Shown: piece after piece, positions 18,248-57,153 of the stretch | Layout: the number at the start of each line of letters is the position of its first letter | Position numbering within the stretch: position 1 is the stretch's first letter | Source: a bacterium | GTDB taxonomy: Bacteria; Chloroflexota; Dormibacteria; Aeolococcales; Bog-877 | DNA length: 57,225 bases | Direction of reading: 5' to 3' | Assembly (NCBI GenBank): GCA_021791415.1 | Contig: JAJYWQ010000020.1 | Coordinates: forward strand, 1-57,225 | Notes under the pieces: generated by a model | Seen by the model: the letters and a program-made list of their open reading frames with translations, nothing else | What the model was told of the DNA's origin: nothing | Database searches by the model: none | Position numbers and translations under genes: made by a program

Positions 18248-19276
18248 TCAGGCCTCGCCCAGCACCCGGGTGGCCACCTCGGCGACATCGGGTGGACGCT
18301 GACCAGGATGACTGCGCACACGGTGACTCAGGACCATGGGCGCCACCTCGGCGACCTCGGCTATCCCCGCGGTCCGACCGCCCCGCAGGGCGGCCAGAGC
18401 CTGAGCAGCCTTCCGGCCGACCAGGTCGGCGCGGTGGCCGTCCACGTCGAGGGCGATGGAGAGCCGGGCGATCGCCTCAAGCACCGGCCGGCCCACCTCC
18501 ACCTGGGGCAGGAGAGCCATAGCCTCGGCGATCTGGACCCGCAGCTGCTCCTCGGCCTCTGCCCAGGACGCCTGAAAGGCCTCGGGGTCCTCCTCGAATG
18601 CCTCCCGGCGGAGGACGATCTCCACCCGCTCGGACAGGTCGGAGATGCCCTCCACGTCCACGCACAGCCCGAAGCGGTCCAGCAGCTGGGGACGCAGGTC
18701 CCCCTCCTCCGGGTTCATGGTTCCCACCAGGATGAAGCGGGCAGGGTGCCACACGGAGATGCCCTCGCGCTCCACCACATTGACCCCCATCGCCGCCGCG
18801 TCCAGGAGGACGTCGACGATGTGGTCGTCGAGGAGGTTCACCTCATCCACGTAGAGGATCTGACGGTTGGCCTCCGCCAGAACTCCCGGCTGGAACCGAC
18901 GCTGGCCCGCGTGGATGGCCGCCTCCAGATCGATGCTCCCCACCACCCGGTCCTCGGAGGCGTTGATCGGAAGTTCCACCACCCGCATCCGCCGCGGCTC
19001 CGCCACCAGCTCCTCCCCCCCGGCCCTCCGCTGCTGGCACTCCAGGCAGAGGGGCTCTGAGAGCGGGTCACAGCCGTATCTACAGCCCCGTATCACCTGG
19101 ATCTCTGGGAGGAGGCGTGCCAGAGCCCGCACCGCCGTGGACTTGGCGGTCCCCTTCTGGCCCCGGATGAGGACCCCCCCGACGCTGGGGTTGACGGCGT
19201 TCAACTCCAGCGCCAACCGCATCCGGTCCTGACCCACGAGGGCAGTGAAGGGGTACACGCTTCGCGGCTCGCTCAC
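18248..19276 (-). CDS. chlI: Mg/Co-chelatase AAA+ subunit I (ChlI/BchI-like)
   Basis: 342 aa AAA+ ATPase: Walker [10 protein letters not shown] near residue 40, Walker [20 protein letters not shown], sensor-1 [20 protein letters not shown] and an arginine finger region after RFGLCVDV. It carries a four-cysteine insert (CRYGC ... CLEC) between Walker A and the next strand. That insert is seen in chelatase I proteins linked to cobaltochelatase rather than photosynthetic BchI. It drives metal insertion into tetrapyrrole together with the D subunit directly upstream (47-bp gap). No large H/CobN subunit is present here. GTG start. Confidence 0.87.
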
Positions 19277-19323
19277 GCCTCGATTGTCGCAGAGGTGCGG
19301 CCCCCGACCGGTCTGGCGCCAGG

Positions 19324-21408
19324 TCAGGTGCCGCGGCGGAGGGCCTCTGCCACCGGGCGGAGGATTCCCTGCTCGGTGACATCGAATAGGGCGAAGTACT
19401 CTCCTCCCAGCCGCTGGCTGAGGTCCACGCAGGCGTTGAAGTGGTATCCGGCCAACTGTGGGCCTCCCGAGGTCTGAGTGACCGGCAGGTGGTCGCGCGA
19501 GGTGTCGATGACCACGGTGTGGATCCGAGCCCGCTGAATCTCGGCGGCGGCGGCCTGCGCCTCGCGCAACGGCTCATCTCCTCGAAGGCTGATGTTGCCT
19601 CGGCCGTCGCTGATCAGCACCAGGAGCGGCAGCACGTCCTGGTCGCGGCGCCGCTCCGCCAGGATCAGGTCGAGGGCGGCCACCAGCCCGTGGGTGAGGG
19701 GGGTCGTCCCGCCCACCGCCAGCCGGCTCAGCTGGCGCTCGGCGAGGTCCACGCTCGAGGTGGGCCGGAGCACGGTCCGGGCGCTGCGGCCGGCGAAGGA
19801 GATCATCGCCACCCGGTCGCGGCGGACATAGGCCTCCCGGAGGAGGGCCAGGATGGCGCTGCGCGTGGCATCCATCCGCTGCTCGGCGTCCATGCTGGCC
19901 GAGGCGTCGACGAGGAACACTATGAGGTTGCCGATCCGCCGCTGGCGGACCTTCTGGCGGAGGTCCTGGCGCTCCAGCTGGATCGCCCTTCCATCGCCGG
20001 CGGGGGCTGCGCTGCGGCGCTGGTTCTGGTGGGGGGCGGCGGCCCTCAGAGTGGCGTCCAGGGCCAGGTCTGTCGTCTTCTCCTGCCAGCGCGAGCTCAC
20101 GTACCGGCCCCTTCGATCCTGAGAGGAGGTGCGGCTGCGCCGGCCGCTCCCCCGGCGCCGCCTCCTCTCATGGGGGAGCTGCAACCGGCCCGCCTCATAG
20201 CGTTCCTCCAGCTCAACGCTGGCCGCGGTGGGCGCCGACATGGGCCCGGCGCGGCCGGCACCGGCCTCCGCGGCGTTGCCTGGGGAGCTGGACTGGCTTC
20301 CCTCGGCGACCTCTCCCTCTCCCTCGCGCTCGCCCTCCCCCCCTTGCGCGGGCTCGGGGTCACCGCCTGGACCGGGGGCGCTGGCCTGCTGGTCGGCGGC
20401 GCCTTCCGCCATGGTCGGCACCCAGCTTCCGGCGACCCGCCGGCGATGCGCCAGGGCCAGCTCGGAGACCTCCATCAGGTCCTGGAGGCTCGCCGGACGA
20501 GCCGCCCCCGAGGGGCCGGGCCGGAGCGCGGCCAGCGCGCGAGCCGCCCTCACCATGACCAGGTCCGCACGGTGCCCGACCACCTGCTGGTCGACGGCCA
20601 TCCGGGCGGCAGCCAGGACCAGCTTGCGGGGCAGCTCCACCTCGGGGAGCCGGCGGCGCGCCTCGGTCAGCTGGAGGCGCAGGTTCTCGTCACCGGCTGC
20701 GGGACCCGTCGGACCGAGCTCGGACTCCATCACCCTGACCCGTTGCTCCAGGTCCCGGAGCCCAAGCACGTCAACGCAGAGCCCGAAGCGGTCCAGCAGT
20801 TGGGGACGCAGCTCCCCCTCCTCGGGGTTCATGGTCCCGATCAGGATGAAGTGGGAGGGATGACTGGCGGAGACGCCCTCCCGCTCCACGACGTTGCGCC
20901 CGCTGGCGGCGGCGTCCAGGAGCACGTCCACCAGGTGGTGGTCCAGAAGGTTGACCTCGTCCACGTAGAGGACCTGGCCGTTGGCCTCGGCGAGGACTCC
21001 CGGTTGAAACCTCACCTCGCCTGAGTTGAGGGCGAACTCGAGGTCCAGGGATCCGACCACCCGGTCCTCGGTGGCTCCCAGGGGCAGCTCCACCAGCCCG
21101 GTGGGGACGCTCTCCAAAGGCAGGGTGCGCCCCCCCTGGGACCGCGTCCGGCACTCCTCGCAGAGGTCACCAGCAGAGGGCTGGCAGTGGAAGCGGCATC
21201 CGACGACCACCTCGCGTGGGGGGAGCACCGCGACCAAGGCGCGCGCCAGCGTGGACTTCGCGGTGCCCCGCTCGCCCCGGATCAGGACCCCGCCGATCAA
21301 CGGGTCGACGGCCGCCAGCAGCAGCGCCAACTTCATGCGGTCCTGACCGACCACCTGCTGGAAGCCCGGTCCCCGACGGGGTGCCAGGTCGACCGTGGGA
21401 AGGCTCAA
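19324..21408 (-). CDS. chlD: Mg/Co-chelatase subunit D (AAA+ plus von Willebrand A domain)
   Basis: 694 aa from TTG 21408, which overlaps the upstream stop as TTGA. The N-terminal AAA+ domain retains GERGTAKST, a Cys4 insert (CRFHC ... CEEC), [20 protein letters not shown] and [20 protein letters not shown]. An acidic/Pro/Gln-rich linker (about residues 340-420) follows, then a C-terminal vWA domain with the MIDAS motif FLVDASASM and the SDGRGN strand. I and D form the ATP-driven double ring that remodels the catalytic subunit. Unlike many D subunits, its AAA motor keeps an intact Walker A. Cofactor specificity (Mg versus Co) is undecided. Confidence 0.87.
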
Positions 21409-21791
21409 GCGGGATCCGGCTCCGTGCCGGCGAGGCGCCGCCGCCACGGCGAAGGCAGGGCCACGGTCACCGCTCCGTCCGGCCATCCCACCTCGAGCTC
21501 TCCCGGAGGAGTGTTGGCGAGCGGAGCCAGCAGCAGGGCCACGGCGTCCCCGCCCTCGTCCCACCCGGCCTCGGCGACCACCCGGAAAGGCGCGTCGGCG
21601 GACGGGTATCCAATCGAGGGAGGCGGGGCCGCGGGCAGCCCGGCCTCTCGCACCAGGAGTAGCTGGCAGTGGCGCCCGGATTCGGCATCCGCCGGTTGCG
21701 ACGCCGTCCCTTCCGCCGGCTCGAGGGTGGGAGAGAACAGCAGTTCATGCCCCGAGCCCAGGGCGAGTGGCTCGTCTCTCGGCTGGTCCAT
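21405..21791 (-). CDS. Unknown small protein, first gene of the chelatase operon
   Basis: 128 aa from ATG 21791. I do not recognise a family. It begins MDQPRDEPLALGSGHELL and contains strands such as CQLLLVREAG, FRVVAEAGWDEGGDAVALLL and LEVGWPDGAVTVALPSPW. The mix of short beta-like strands and Pro/Gly turns suggests a small beta-rich fold. Its stop overlaps the chlD TTG start, so its translation likely drives chlD. The start is supported by TACGAT exactly 6 nt upstream. No signal peptide or membrane segment. A role in tetrapyrrole handling is only inferred from the operon. Confidence 0.6.
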   Translation of the reverse strand: MDQPRDEPLALGSGHELLFSPTLEPAEGTASQPADAESGRHCQLLLVREAGLPAAPPPSIGYPSADAPFRVVAEAGWDEGGDAVALLLAPLANTPPGELEVGWPDGAVTVALPSPWRRRLAGTEPDPA

Positions 21792-21803: not shown

Positions 21804-21840
21804 GGTGCGCTGAGGTTGGCAGGGAGCCGGAGGAGTGGCG

Positions 21841-22497
21841 GTGGGAGAGCCGATCGGCATCATCGGAGGAACGGGCCCCCTGGGGACCGGCCTGGCGCTG
21901 CGCTTCGCGGCGGCCGGGCTCAAAGTGCAGGTGGGCTCAAGGGACCCCGACCGAGCCGGGGAGGTCGCCCAGAGGCTGAACACGCTGCTGGACGGCGCCG
22001 CCGGGGAGGTGAGCGGAGGCCTGAACCAGGAAGTGGCAGCGCTGGGGCTGGTCGCCGTCGCCCTGCCCTACGAGGCGATGCGGGCGACCGTCCTGGGACT
22101 GGCTCCTGAGCTGGCCGGGAAGATCGTCATCTCCACGGCTGTGCCGATGTCGTTCGCCTCTGGCCGGCCCGAGCCGGTGCGCCCCGAAGCCGGTTCCGCC
22201 GCCGAGGAGTTGGCAGAGATCTGCCCAGGGTCCCGGGTGGTGGGGGCGTTCCAAACGGTGGCGGCGGGTCAGCTGCTGGACCTTCGGCTGCGGCTGGACG
22301 AGGACGTGCTGGTGGGCTCGGACGACCGAGAGGCGCGAAGGGAGGTTGCCAACTTGGTGGGGCGAATCGAGGGGCTCCGCGCTGTGGAGTCGGGCCCGCT
22401 CGCCACCTGCCGATACTCGGAGGGGCTGACCCCACTGCTCCTCAGGCTGAACCGGCTGCACCACGCTCAGACCGGCATCCGCATCACCGGGCTCTAG
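21841..22497 (+). CDS. npdG: NADPH-dependent F420 reductase-like protein
   Basis: 218 aa, Rossmann-fold. IGIIGGTGPLGTGLALRFAAAG is the dinucleotide motif, followed by VQVGSRDPDRAGEVA, the loop that selects NADP phosphate in F420:NADP oxidoreductases. The strand VVGAFQTVAAGQL and the helix LATCRYSEGLTPLLLRL fit the family's C-terminal F420-binding half. It would interconvert F420H2 and NADPH, or act as a related NADP reductase. GTG 21841 is chosen because GGAGG lies 7 nt upstream; a GTG at 21835 is too close to it. Divergent from the chelatase operon. Confidence 0.78.
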   Translation: MGEPIGIIGGTGPLGTGLALRFAAAGLKVQVGSRDPDRAGEVAQRLNTLLDGAAGEVSGGLNQEVAALGLVAVALPYEAMRATVLGLAPELAGKIVISTAVPMSFASGRPEPVRPEAGSAAEELAEICPGSRVVGAFQTVAAGQLLDLRLRLDEDVLVGSDDREARREVANLVGRIEGLRAVESGPLATCRYSEGLTPLLLRLNRLHHAQTGIRITGL

Positions 22498-53791: not shown

Positions 53792-54378
53792 CTCCGCCGG
53801 GTGGGCCGGGACGCCGCCGATGGGGGCCGACGGCGGATCCTCGGGCGGAGCCCCCGGTCCAGCTCATCGGCGCGCCGCACCAGCAGGATGAGATCCTGGT
53901 CCAGCACCGTTCGCCGACCCAGCTCCCGACCCACGGCCAGCAGCTGGTCATGGTCCATCTCGACCCTCACTATGCAGACGGGACTGGTGGCGTAGCGCTT
54001 CAGGCTCCCGCTGAGCAGTGAACGCCGGCTGGGGGTGTCGAAGAAGGCCCCCAGGGGTTGGGACCGGGACTGGCGGAGGCTCTCGTAGGGCACGGTGGTG
54101 AGCTTGAACCAGTGGCGAATGAGCAGCCCCTCGGAGACGAGGGAGACGTAATGCCAGCGCTGGCGGAGGTAGAGCCAGCCAAGGACCATGAGGAACAGGG
54201 CAAGCACGACCAGGAAGCTGGGGTCGAGCCCGTGGCGCCCGTAGATGGTGATGCCCTCCCCCGCCAGGAGCACGGCGATGCCGTAGGCGAGGACCCACCA
54301 CATCCGCCGCCACAGCTCGTAGGAGGTGATCAGCGGGTACTTCGGCTCGGGAGCGACCGCAGGTTGGCTCTGGCTCAC
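53788..54378 (-). CDS. Membrane protein with bacterial PH-like domain
   Basis: 196 aa. Two closely spaced helices (about 28-48 and 55-75: MWWVLAYGIAVLLAGEGITI, FLVVLALFLMVLGWLYL) followed by a beta-rich module YVSLVSEGLLIRHWFKLTTV and PYESLRQ, the pattern of bacterial PH (YdbS/YdbT-like) domains. C-terminal Arg-rich tail. Function unknown. The GTG start overlaps the mtnP stop as GTGA and its own stop overlaps the PMT start, so it is an operon member between mtnP and the PMT gene. Confidence 0.7.
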   Translation of the reverse strand: MSQSQPAVAPEPKYPLITSYELWRRMWWVLAYGIAVLLAGEGITIYGRHGLDPSFLVVLALFLMVLGWLYLRQRWHYVSLVSEGLLIRHWFKLTTVPYESLRQSRSQPLGAFFDTPSRRSLLSGSLKRYATSPVCIVRVEMDHDQLLAVGRELGRRTVLDQDLILLVRRADELDRGLRPRIRRRPPSAASRPTRRR

Positions 54379-55178
54379 CCGGCAGCGTCCTGGGGGAGGC
54401 GGGCGGCGGCACAGGAGCACCCCCTCTCCGGCGGCATCCCGGCCACCACGTCCAGCAGTAGGGAGCGAACCCGATCCACGTTCGCCGCGAACACCCTCAG
54501 GACCTCCTGGTGGCTAACCGGGGCGATGTCCGGCCTGCCCTCCAGCCCGGCGTCGTAGTCCGTGACCAGGGCGATGGAGGCGTAGCACATGCCCAGCTCC
54601 CTGGCCAGCGCCACCTCGGGGTATCCCGTCATGCCCACGATCCCCCACCCCATCTGCGAGTACCAGGCCGACTCCGCCCGGGTTCCGAAGCGGGGGCCCT
54701 GGATCACCACCATGGTCCGATGCCGGTGGACCGTCCTGCCGGAGGCAGTGGCTTTCGATTCGGCAAGGTCGCCCAACTCCGGGCAGTAAGGGTCAGCAGC
54801 CGCGAGGTGTGCCACCTCGGGCCCCTCCCAGAAGGTGTCCGAGCGGCCCCAGGTCCGGTCCACGTACTGGTCGGGGATGACGACGTCCCCGGGGGCCAGC
54901 TCGGCTTGCAGCGAGCCGACCGCCGCCGGGCCCAGCACCCGGGTCACGCCCAGCTGGCCCATTGCATGGAGGTTGGCGCGAAAGTTGATCTGGTGCGGCG
55001 GGATGGTGTGGTGGCGGCCATGCCGCGGCATGAACACGACCTTGCGGGTGCCGATCCGGCCGACGAAGGCGGCGTCGCTGGGCGCCCCGTAGGGGGTCTC
55101 GACCCGAACCTCCTCGGCCCCCTGCAAGAGCTCGTAGAGCCCCGACCCGCCGAATATCCCCACCACGTCCTCGGTCAT
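54375..55178 (-). CDS. mtnP: S-methyl-5'-thioadenosine phosphorylase
   Basis: 267 aa PNP-family phosphorylase. VGIFGGSGLYELLQGAEEV, VFMPRHGRHHTIPPHQINFR (phosphate and base site) and RVLGPAAVGSLQAELAPGDV are present. IQGPRFGTRAESAWY has GPRFGT where MTAP normally has GPRFST, and LVTDYDAGLEG is the acidic substrate loop. Cleaves MTA to adenine and methylthioribose-1-P; with the GT/PS variation a 6-oxopurine phosphorylase-type specificity is possible. ATG with GGGAGG upstream. Preceded by CATAAT at 55233. First gene of mtnP, PH, PMT, GT-C. Confidence 0.92.
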   Translation of the reverse strand: MTEDVVGIFGGSGLYELLQGAEEVRVETPYGAPSDAAFVGRIGTRKVVFMPRHGRHHTIPPHQINFRANLHAMGQLGVTRVLGPAAVGSLQAELAPGDVVIPDQYVDRTWGRSDTFWEGPEVAHLAAADPYCPELGDLAESKATASGRTVHRHRTMVVIQGPRFGTRAESAWYSQMGWGIVGMTGYPEVALARELGMCYASIALVTDYDAGLEGRPDIAPVSHQEVLRVFAANVDRVRSLLLDVVAGMPPERGCSCAAARLPQDAAG

Positions 55179-55253: not shown

Positions 55254-56018
55254 TCACCTCCGATGGCTCGGGCAGTTCGGGTCCCGCGGGAACTGGATCT
55301 CCCGCCAGCGCATGGAGGCGCCGTCGAGGTCCCACAGCCTGCCCACCAGGCTGGCTGGGCCGATGCCCGCGAGCCAGCTGAGCGCCAGAAGAGCCTGCAT
55401 CGCCCCCACCACCCCAGCCACCGGTCCGAGGATCCCGGCAGTGCGGCAGTCGGCCGCGGTGGCAGGGGTCGCCGGGAACAGACAGCGGTAACACGGCCCG
55501 ACCCCTCCCACCTGCAGCACCTGACCCCGAAGGCCGGTAGCTCCGGCGATCACTAGCTGGCGTCCGCTCTCCACGGCCCAGTCATTGAGCGCGAACTTGG
55601 TCTCCGGGTCGTCGGTGCACTCCAGGATCAGCTCCGCGCCTTCGAGAGACGGGCTCAGGGCACTCGGATCAGCCCGGGCAGGAAGGGGCTCCACCGCTAC
55701 CAACTCGTTGAGCGCGCGAAGACGCTCAGCCAGGCGCCCCGCCTTGGAGGCTCCGATGTCCGCCGTGCTGAACTGCACCTGGCGGTGGAGGTTGTCCAGG
55801 GCCACAGAGTCCGGGTCGAGGAGGCGAACATGGCCCACCCCCGCCCCCACAAGATAGGGGGCGGCAGCCGAGCCCAGGGCCCCGCACCCCACGACCGCCA
55901 CTGTGGCCCGTCTGAGCCGGAGCTGGGCAGTCTCGCCCATCTCTGGCAGCAGCAGTTGCCTGCTGTAGCGCTCCACCTCCACGTCGGACAGACTGTCCCC
56001 GGCGCCCTCCGAGCTCAC
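55254..56018 (-). CDS. moeB: MoeB/ThiF-family E1-like adenylyltransferase
   Basis: 254 aa. RYSRQLLLPEMGETAQLRLR, nucleotide loop VVGCGALGSAAAPYLVGAG, LLDPDSVALDNLHRQVQF (Arg finger) and STADIGASKA are standard. GPCYRCLF holds the zinc pair C176/C179, and ATAADCRTAGILGPVAG the catalytic C191. The second zinc pair is changed: the C-terminus reads DPNCPSH (C249, H252) instead of CxxC. It adenylates the C-terminus of a ubiquitin-like sulfur carrier (MoaD/ThiS type), but no such carrier gene is present here. GTG start overlaps the DsrH-like stop (GTGA). Confidence 0.88.
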   Translation of the reverse strand: MSSEGAGDSLSDVEVERYSRQLLLPEMGETAQLRLRRATVAVVGCGALGSAAAPYLVGAGVGHVRLLDPDSVALDNLHRQVQFSTADIGASKAGRLAERLRALNELVAVEPLPARADPSALSPSLEGAELILECTDDPETKFALNDWAVESGRQLVIAGATGLRGQVLQVGGVGPCYRCLFPATPATAADCRTAGILGPVAGVVGAMQALLALSWLAGIGPASLVGRLWDLDGASMRWREIQFPRDPNCPSHRR

Positions 56019-56305
56019 CAAGCGACCACCACGTCGGCAGACAACAGGAGGCTCAGCAGCGCCTCGTAGTCCACAAGCGCCCAGCGCTCGGTGGCCAGCC
56101 GCACCGCAGCATCGGCGTGCACCGCCAAGATGGGCACCACCTCCTGGCTCACCGAGTGCCCGAGCAAGCCCCGAACGCTCGGCTCTGTCTCCGACACCGC
56201 TTCCCCGGCCAGTACCACCACGGGCCGGCGCCCGCCCGCGAGAGAGTACGCCACCGACTGCCAACCTCTGTGGTCCCCGGCGCGGCTGATCAGGTGGAGC
56301 TCCAT
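56015..56305 (-). CDS. DsrH/TusB-like protein without cysteine
   Basis: 96 aa. MELHLISRAGDHRGWQSVAY, a central VVVLAGEAV, VPILAVHADAAVRLA, the strand WALVDYEALLSLLLSADVVVAW at the end. The terminal DYxxLLxL...ADVVVAW closely matches DsrH/TusB. It has no cysteine at all, so it would be structural in a DsrEFH/TusBCD-like hexamer rather than a persulfide carrier. ATG 56305 is preferred over GTG 56311 because GAGGTG lies 5 nt upstream. Confidence 0.68.
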   Translation of the reverse strand: MELHLISRAGDHRGWQSVAYSLAGGRRPVVVLAGEAVSETEPSVRGLLGHSVSQEVVPILAVHADAAVRLATERWALVDYEALLSLLLSADVVVAW

Positions 56306-56312
56306 GCCCACC

Positions 56313-56669
56313 TCATATCACCAGCCAGTGGTGCGCCTGCCGGCATCGGGCCTCGATCTCGTCCGCGCCAAGAGTCCGCACCTGCGGCCGCAGGCGGGCA
56401 ACGAGGGCGGGGTCATCCCCGGCATCCCACCTGACCACGACCTCGACGCCATCATCGGCCAGCAGGGCCTCCATCTGCTCAGAGATCTCATCGGGTCCCG
56501 TACCGCCGGGGGTCTCGGGCTGGATGGCCAACTCACGGGCCGCACCCTCCAGCACCAGGAACACGTCACAGCCGCCCAGGGGAAGCGCCAGGGCGACCGC
56601 GACTGCCTGCCCCATCTCCGCTCCCCCGCTCCTGGCCACCAAGGCCACCTCCCGATTGGTCACCGGCAT
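56313..56669 (-). CDS. DsrE/DsrF-like protein, second subunit
   Basis: 118 aa. REVALVARSGGAEMGQAVAV, VFLVLEGAARELAIQPE, a helix EQMEALLADDGVEVVVRW and the ending RCRQAHHWLVI. The strand-helix alternation and EG-A at the DsrE GV loop suggest DsrF/TusC. Cys34 and Cys109 are not at the classic carrier position. Its ATG overlaps the previous gene by 10 bp; the DsrH-like gene follows at 7 bp. Confidence 0.6.
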   Translation of the reverse strand: MPVTNREVALVARSGGAEMGQAVAVALALPLGGCDVFLVLEGAARELAIQPETPGGTGPDEISEQMEALLADDGVEVVVRWDAGDDPALVARLRPQVRTLGADEIEARCRQAHHWLVI

Positions 56670-56977
56670 TGCACGACCCTGTCCGCCTCTCGGCACCAGA
56701 GTGCGAGGTCCCTCAGGCTGCCCCTCAACACCCGGTGGTCCGGTGCCTCGCCCCCCCGCCTCCATCGCCAGTCGGCGTCGCAGTGGGCCACCGAGGCGCC
56801 CGATCCGACGACCCGCCCGGCCGCCAGGACCCCATCCCCCACGAGGAAGACCTTGGTGTCATGGCCGGCAGCCACGGCTGCGTGGGCCAGTCCCGAGATC
56901 AAACCGGCCGATGGAGAGTCCGGCCCCGAGCCCAGGACCAGGACCAGCCTGCGGTGGGTCGCACTGACGCCGGCCAC
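56660..56977 (-). CDS. DsrE/TusD-like protein with candidate carrier cysteine
   Basis: 105 aa from GTG 56977. RRLVLVLGSGPDSPSAGLIS, HAAVAAGHDTKVFLVGDGVL (the DsrE GDGV loop) and ASVAHCDADWRWRRGG, where Cys66 falls at the conserved persulfide-carrying position. Two more cysteines lie at 95 and 104 near the C-terminus. First of the operon dsrE, dsrE2, dsrH, moeB. The start is backed by TACGCT 7 nt upstream; earlier in-frame codons run into the tRNA and are not used. Confidence 0.68.
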   Translation of the reverse strand: MAGVSATHRRLVLVLGSGPDSPSAGLISGLAHAAVAAGHDTKVFLVGDGVLAAGRVVGSGASVAHCDADWRWRRGGEAPDHRVLRGSLRDLALWCREADRVVQCR

Positions 56978-56984
56978 GCCGGTC

Positions 56985-56990
56985 AGCGTA
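56985..56990 (-). promoter_or_regulatory. -10 box, leaderless sulfur-relay operon
   Basis: TACGCT on the minus strand followed by 7 nt and GTG 56977. Confidence 0.5.
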
Positions 56991-57067: not shown

Positions 57068-57153
57068 GCCGGGGTGGCGTAATGGCAGCCGCAGCGGTCT
57101 TAAAAACCGCCGGACGCAAGTCCGTATGGGTTCGAGTCCCATCCCCGGCACCA
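57068..57153 (+). tRNA. tRNA-Leu (UAA)
   Basis: 86 nt including the encoded CCA. Acceptor GCCGGGG / CCCCGGC, discriminator A. D arm GGC...GCC. Anticodon stem GCGGT / ACCGC with loop CUUAAAA (anticodon UAA). A long variable arm (CGGACGCAAGTCCG) as expected for class II Leu. T arm TGGG-TTCGAGT-CCCA. A possible -10 TACCCT lies at 57043-57048, about 20 nt upstream. After it, 57154-57225 holds no recognised feature. Confidence 0.96.

Follow-up and report, generated by a model that had tools for sequence, protein, structure and literature searches.

What does a DsrEFH-type ring serve when it is encoded together with an E1 enzyme in a genome in which its usual partners are not found? The textbook uses of the DsrEFH/TusBCD ring depend on DsrC/TusE or DsrAB. 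The window analysed here, a stretch of 57,225 nucleotides, corresponds to contig 83 in an assembly of 2.16 Mb that is approximately 91% complete and comes from an uncultured Dormibacterota bacterium. A preliminary description had placed three small DsrE/F/H-like proteins and an E1 in one operon of this window and proposed that they deliver sulfur to a ubiquitin-like carrier or into tRNA.

The operon and its products

The locus comprises the following features, with P1 to P3 denoting the small proteins:

56660..56977, minus strand: P1, DsrE-like subunit, 105 amino acids from GTG 56977 (alternative GTG 56968)
56313..56669, minus strand: P2, DsrF/YchN-like subunit, 118 amino acids, start within P1
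56015..56311, minus strand: P3, DsrH/TusB-like subunit, 98 amino acids
55254..56018, minus strand: E1-like adenylyltransferase of the MoeB/ThiF type, 254 amino acids, GTG start
54375..55178, minus strand: S-methyl-5'-thioadenosine phosphorylase (MTAP; NCBIfam PRK07823, 330.8 bits, above the cut-off)
57068..57153, plus strand: tRNA-Leu(TAA), found with ARAGORN, upstream of the operon and divergent

The four-gene operon on the minus strand (56977-55254) was confirmed as first described, including its co-translation. The P1 and P2 genes share 10 nt, a single nucleotide separates the P2 stop from the P3 start, and the P3 stop overlaps the GTG start of the E1 gene (GTGA). All four frames are conserved in 14 further family genomes, in which the identity of P2 and P3 falls as low as approximately 30–40%, showing that P1 to P3 and the E1 gene are genuine genes rather than chance frames. 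A promoter scan gave no match.

The functional meaning initially attached to the neighbouring genes found no support. MTAP is the nearest gene downstream of the E1 gene (75-nt gap) and was rejected as a relay partner: in a related family (f3; L050, L051) it follows a tandem E1 pair, itself located behind an Rrf2-like gene, without any DsrEFH, and in one genome (G013) a nadA-like gene intervenes. It is probably a conserved syntenic neighbour and not part of the relay. The tRNA-Leu gene was likewise rejected as a functional partner and is a neighbour only. Elsewhere in the window, two neighbouring magnesium-chelatase-like genes and an F420-dependent NADP reductase-like gene were read by eye (18248-21564 and 21835-22497).

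Taken as single sequences, the small proteins gave weaker support for DsrE/F/H signatures than had been implied. P1 matched Pfam DsrE barely over the cut-off (23.3 vs 22.7 bits; 7.5e-5) and the NCBIfam TusD equivalog far under it (14.7 bits, cut-off 89), and P2 and P3 had no match in Pfam or NCBIfam scans. The signatures emerged from family profiles, built on alignments of 16 orthologous sequences, and from structure models. Searched against the PDB, the P1 profile (A1) ranked YchN (6e-4) and DsrE (2hy5_A, 1.2e-3) first and the P2 profile (A2) YchN (1.8e-3), while the best two matches of the P3 profile (A3) were DsrH (2hy5_C, 0.011) and TusB (2d1p_C, 0.12); these E-values are modest (6e-4 to 0.12), and the best-ranked among 177,635 sequences are the expected relatives. 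The AlphaFold model of P2 (pLDDT 85) matched DsrE (2hy5_A, 5.4e-6), YchN (3.9e-5) and DsrF (2hy5_B, 1.2e-3) in Foldseek, and that of P3 (pLDDT 94) the DsrE/F-like 3mc3 (3e-4), DsrH (7.2e-4) and TusB (2.4e-3); the Foldseek probability of both models against the DsrE/DsrF/DsrH and TusB/TusD structures was 1.00. Profiles and models thus support a predicted grouping of P2 with DsrE/YchN/DsrF and of P3 with DsrH/TusB, and the operon encodes three DsrE-fold subunits including one of the DsrH/TusB type, P1 by profile and P2 and P3 by modelled fold. As both kinds of match exist, the earlier concern that the three proteins might match no profile falls away.

The DsrE/TusD-type subunit carries a carrier cysteine. 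Cys66 of P1 (numbered from GTG 56977; alignment position 62), in the motif VAHCDADWRWR, is invariant in the 16 sequences, in agreement with the carrier position first ascribed to it. P2 has no invariant cysteine among the 16 orthologues. P3 is free of cysteine, as had been seen for the DsrH-like subunit, and its Tyr82 and C-terminal Trp are invariant across the 16.

The fourth product belongs to the MoeB/ThiF E1 superfamily. It contains a Pfam ThiF domain (2.3e-64) and the nucleotide-binding, zinc and cysteine motifs of these enzymes: GxGxxG and NLxRQ, CYRC and CPSH of the zinc type, and a conserved cysteine in CRTAGIL. The second zinc motif is CxxH in most of the family. The protein matched ThiF (1zfn, 2.7e-46) and MoeB (1jw9, 1.4e-40) in the PDB but stayed below the trusted NCBIfam cut-offs for MoeB (205.8 bits, cut-off 266) and ThiF (202.1 bits, cut-off 275), so that by these scores it would be neither MoeB nor ThiF proper. 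In the E1 tree the operon E1s of 15 genomes of the window's family (f1) form one clade (100/99), outside which fall the E1 of genome G009 and the E1s of the second copy in family f2. The genome of the window encodes just two E1s at E<=1e-30. The second has a fused N-terminal rhodanese and reaches 552 bits against a MoeB cut-off of 449; the operon E1 has no rhodanese domain. That it lacks the rhodanese of its paralogue suggests that the ring takes the place of this domain.

Gene neighbourhoods in the phylum

Orthologues of the E1 were detected in the genus and the family, and 15 family genomes carry P1-P2-P3-E1 in full (the window's own, seven of the genus and seven others); in a further one (G010) the order is interrupted by a contig end. 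The suspicion that this gene order might occur in one genome only is thereby removed. A search of genome contigs with the E1 profile (A4) matched loci titled Dormiibacterota or Chloroflexi and untitled 'bacterium' entries, all on contigs of the genomes compared here; the survey as a whole covered this phylum. Several of the neighbouring genes named below were read by eye from translations and not scored.

Outside the family, f2 (L047-L049) shows the order Rrf2-E1-DsrE-DsrF-DsrH-LarE-E1, in which Rrf2 and LarE were confirmed by search. We extended the comparison to 400 genomes sampled from the phylum, incomplete metagenome assemblies among them, of which 20 were matched by a DsrH-like profile and 21 by a wider one. 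One of these (L163) encodes the entire relay in a single run, E1-TusA-DsrE-F-H-JAMM-LarE. Family f22 (L159/L162) has Rrf2-E1-DsrH-JAMM-LarE; between its E1 and JAMM genes a cysteine-free DsrH-like gene stands alone, DsrE and DsrF were not detected there, and in L162 the gap contains repeated sequence. L160 has DsrE-F-H-JAMM, and L157 and L158 have DsrEFH with TusA, Hdr-like and LbpA/GcvH-like genes. The DsrH neighbourhood of L161 showed none of E1, TusA, JAMM, LarE, Hdr-like or LbpA-like genes.

The pairing of DsrEFH-like genes with an E1 recurs across the phylum. Of seven families with a DsrH-like gene, four have an E1 near DsrEFH or DsrH and three have JAMM beside DsrH; a simple placement model gave 3e-7 and 1e-5 for these counts, values that are crude because the families share ancestry and the operon itself helped to find them. 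Together the two neighbours indicate a ubiquitin-like carrier. No gene for such a carrier was seen within any DsrEFH-E1 cluster examined.

Candidate recipients of the sulfur

Four ubiquitin-like carriers are encoded in the genome of the window:

carrier 1, beside mnmA: SAMP1/CysO-like (65.2 bits, cut-off 60)
carrier 2: MoaD-MoaE fusion
carrier 3, by the thiazole genes: ThiS
carrier 4, by a BNR-repeat-like gene (neighbour read by eye)

The genome also holds a CysO-type set, comprising the CysO-like carrier, a CysM-like synthase and JAMM. The CysM-like gene (362.6 bits against a cut-off of 394, its exact type not certain) adjoins the JAMM gene on the contig of the operon, at a distance of approximately 17 kb. 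Searches of the genome had been proposed for TusA, MoaD, ThiS and TusE; the first three are present, MoaD as the fusion, and TusE was not found. The original view that neither partner of a classical ring is here therefore stands for TusE/DsrC but not for TusA, which is encoded elsewhere in the genome. DsrC/TusE (PF04358) and DsrAB or assimilatory sulfite reductase (PF01077) had no match in the approximately 91% complete, metagenome-derived assembly; these absences, like those of the Lar proteins below, rest on family searches and are provisional. Neither the TusBCD-TusE nor the Dsr pathway is thus complete, and the two textbook users of the ring are unavailable.

The reading we favour, with a probability of about 0.5, is that the DsrEFH ring acts as persulfide donor to the rhodanese-less E1, which would thiocarboxylate a ubiquitin-like carrier, most likely a CysO/SAMP1-like one. 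From the gene order and its conservation, the folds of P2 and P3, the conserved catalytic residues and the partners in the genome we infer the following route. P1 to P3 would assemble a ring of the DsrEFH/TusDCB type, with Cys66 of P1 bearing the persulfide. Loaded by a sulfane-sulfur donor, for example TusA or a rhodanese, the ring would feed the co-translated E1 directly. The E1 would adenylate the C-terminal glycine of the carrier, and sulfur from the ring would convert the acyl-adenylate to a thiocarboxylate, the role of the fused rhodanese in the other E1 of the genome. A CysO/SAMP1-like thiocarboxylate may then serve CysM as substrate, with JAMM releasing the product to yield cysteine; MoaD, ThiS or MnmA are alternative users of the sulfur.

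The proposed delivery from a Tus-like ring through an E1 to a ubiquitin-like carrier thus gains support from the coupling itself, the JAMM and E1 neighbourhoods and the candidate carriers, and does not single out one carrier. It could be CysO/SAMP1-like, MoaD, ThiS or the fourth; the CysO/SAMP1-like one is favoured because JAMM, its usual companion, recurs beside DsrH. Presence and absence was tried as a guide and proved uninformative, since MoaA occurs in nearly all tested genomes with or without the operon, JAMM in 22 of 23, and CysE-like matches do not follow operon presence. Against the model count the lack of a carrier gene in the clusters examined and the f22 arrangement, in which DsrH alone was detected between E1 and JAMM. 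In addition, a genome of the same family (G011) has JAMM without a DsrH-like gene, so that the CysO/JAMM set can exist without the operon. By analogy with MoeZ in Mycobacterium, the rhodanese-fused E1 could be the CysO enzyme of this genome.

The CysO/SAMP1-like carriers continue past GG (GGLR, GGRP, GGLSSAG), and such tails would need trimming, e.g. by JAMM. In f1 the carrier gene directly adjoins mnmA (L107 6609-6890 and 5341-6531; also L204, L120, L122 and L115 in the f1/f2 set), and in f2 a threonine-synthase-like gene is followed by the carrier gene, a small NIL-like gene and mnmA.

It is doubtful, though conceivable, that the operon serves molybdopterin synthesis, with the E1 adenylating MoaD and DsrEFH providing the dithiolene sulfur. 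The E1 has both zinc motifs of MoeB-type enzymes, the MoeB-type paralogue of Mycobacterium serves MoaD and not CysO (PMC3227635), and the genome encodes MoaA as well as the MoaD-MoaE fusion. In G009, CoxS/CoxL/CoxM-like genes (of a CO-dehydrogenase-type molybdenum hydroxylase) and a MoxR-like ATPase gene, read by eye, follow the DsrEFH-E1 operon (L046 2251-5110). This Cox neighbourhood, however, was found in one genome, MoaA is near-universal irrespective of the operon, the high-scoring rhodanese-MoeB fusion can fill the MoeB role, and the JAMM and LarE neighbours would be left unexplained.

Those LarE neighbours would fit a general sulfur hub that first fed LarE for the nickel-pincer cofactor and of which the window's family, having lost Lar, retains a remnant for other uses. 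In f2, f22 and f33 the cluster includes LarE and the genomes also encode LarC. The cluster LarE proteins examined carry the CXXC-C cysteine pattern of [4Fe-4S] LarE, a type that depends on a separate sulfane-sulfur donor; in the three-cysteine type this sulfur came from a desulfurase in vitro (PMC9283937). Such a hub cannot operate in the genome of the window, which has no match to LarC and only weak PP-loop matches below the cut-off for LarE, so that it lacks the LarE-LarC module; none of the tested f1 genomes has LarC. As the E1 and JAMM would also be unaccounted for, we consider this origin unlikely.

A diverged TusBCD, passing sulfur from TusA through the ring to MnmA for tRNA 2-thiouridine, appears improbable; the E1 would be a passenger or would make a ubiquitin-like intermediate for MnmA. 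TusA is present, and in both f1 and f2 mnmA stands close to the gene of a CysO/SAMP1-like carrier, which makes a carrier-to-MnmA route conceivable. Beyond this the tRNA thiolation route suggested at the outset found no support, and MnmA of the genome retains both catalytic cysteines and can use a desulfurase directly. Moreover, TusE/DsrC is missing from about half of the tested family genomes and was not found in the window's own, the TusD score is far too low, and the E1 is co-translated in every complete copy of the family.

DsrC was found in 6 of 14 family genomes tested, and several members carry SQR-like, DsrC and DsrE2-like genes clustered on other contigs (L225-L230). Sulfur oxidation of the Dsr, sHdr or SQR type, with an incidental E1, is very improbable: for all these clusters and the Hdr-like and LbpA/GcvH-like neighbours in L157 and L158, neither DsrAB nor DsrC was found in the genome of the window, and the operon persists in relatives without the DsrC clusters.

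Wider meaning and comparison with known systems

The delivery route of sulfur to CysO and similar carriers is a matter of debate, and the partner usually associated with DsrEFH is DsrC/TusE. A conserved operon in which the ring is coupled to an E1, in genomes where DsrC and DsrAB are not detected, offers a concrete, testable candidate donor. As judged from gene content, the pairing suggests a dedicated sulfur handover to carriers for cysteine, cofactors or modified tRNA. More tentatively, DsrEFH rings may have the dedicated task of supplying persulfide, in place of rhodanese, to ubiquitin-like carriers activated by an E1, throughout a phylum-wide Rrf2-E1-TusA-DsrEFH-JAMM-LarE sulfur-distribution module, a generalization that we regard as possible rather than probable. 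If true, DsrEFH would have a third role besides tRNA thiolation and sulfur oxidation, and DsrEFH genes in environmental genomes, often read as markers of sulfur oxidation, would need rereading. Within the open-access literature searched, no paper was found to join DsrE, TusA and MoeB, which is weak evidence of novelty.

With TusBCD of Escherichia coli (YheL-YheM-YheN, PDB 2d1p) the operon shares three small adjacent DsrE-fold genes, a single carrier cysteine in the D-like subunit, a B/H-like subunit ending in Trp, and TusA in the genome. It differs in the coupled E1, in the TusD score of 14.7 vs 89 bits and in that no TusE/DsrC was found. The subunits and their folds also correspond to those of DsrEFH, both of type I (A. 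vinosum, PDB 2hy5) and of type II; Cys66 lies at the position of Cys78/Cys67, and TusA is a plausible donor. In cable bacteria TusA loads Cys67 of DsrE of the type II complex, from which sulfur passes to DsrC in vitro, and the type II paper makes no mention of MoeB (PMC13293266). Here, in contrast, DsrAB and DsrC were not found and the partner is an E1.

Compared with MoeB, ThiF and UbaA, the operon E1 has a complete ThiF fold with the nucleotide-binding, zinc and cysteine motifs, but it lies under both trusted cut-offs, has CxxH as second zinc motif and is accompanied by DsrEFH instead of a fused rhodanese. In Mycobacterium, rhodanese-fused MoeZ sulfurates CysO and its MoeB-type paralogue does not, both have a rhodanese, and the sulfur source of CysO is stated as unknown (PMC3227635). 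In the pathway studied there the E1 brings a rhodanese domain of its own and DsrEFH plays no part; here the carrier gene lies by mnmA and its product has residues beyond GG. Nevertheless, the mycobacterial CysO-MoeZ-CysM-Mec set and the haloarchaeal SAMP1/UbaA/desampylase set have counterparts in this one genome, with a SAMP1-like carrier, a CysM-like protein and JAMM, and in other families of the phylum JAMM stands directly beside DsrH.
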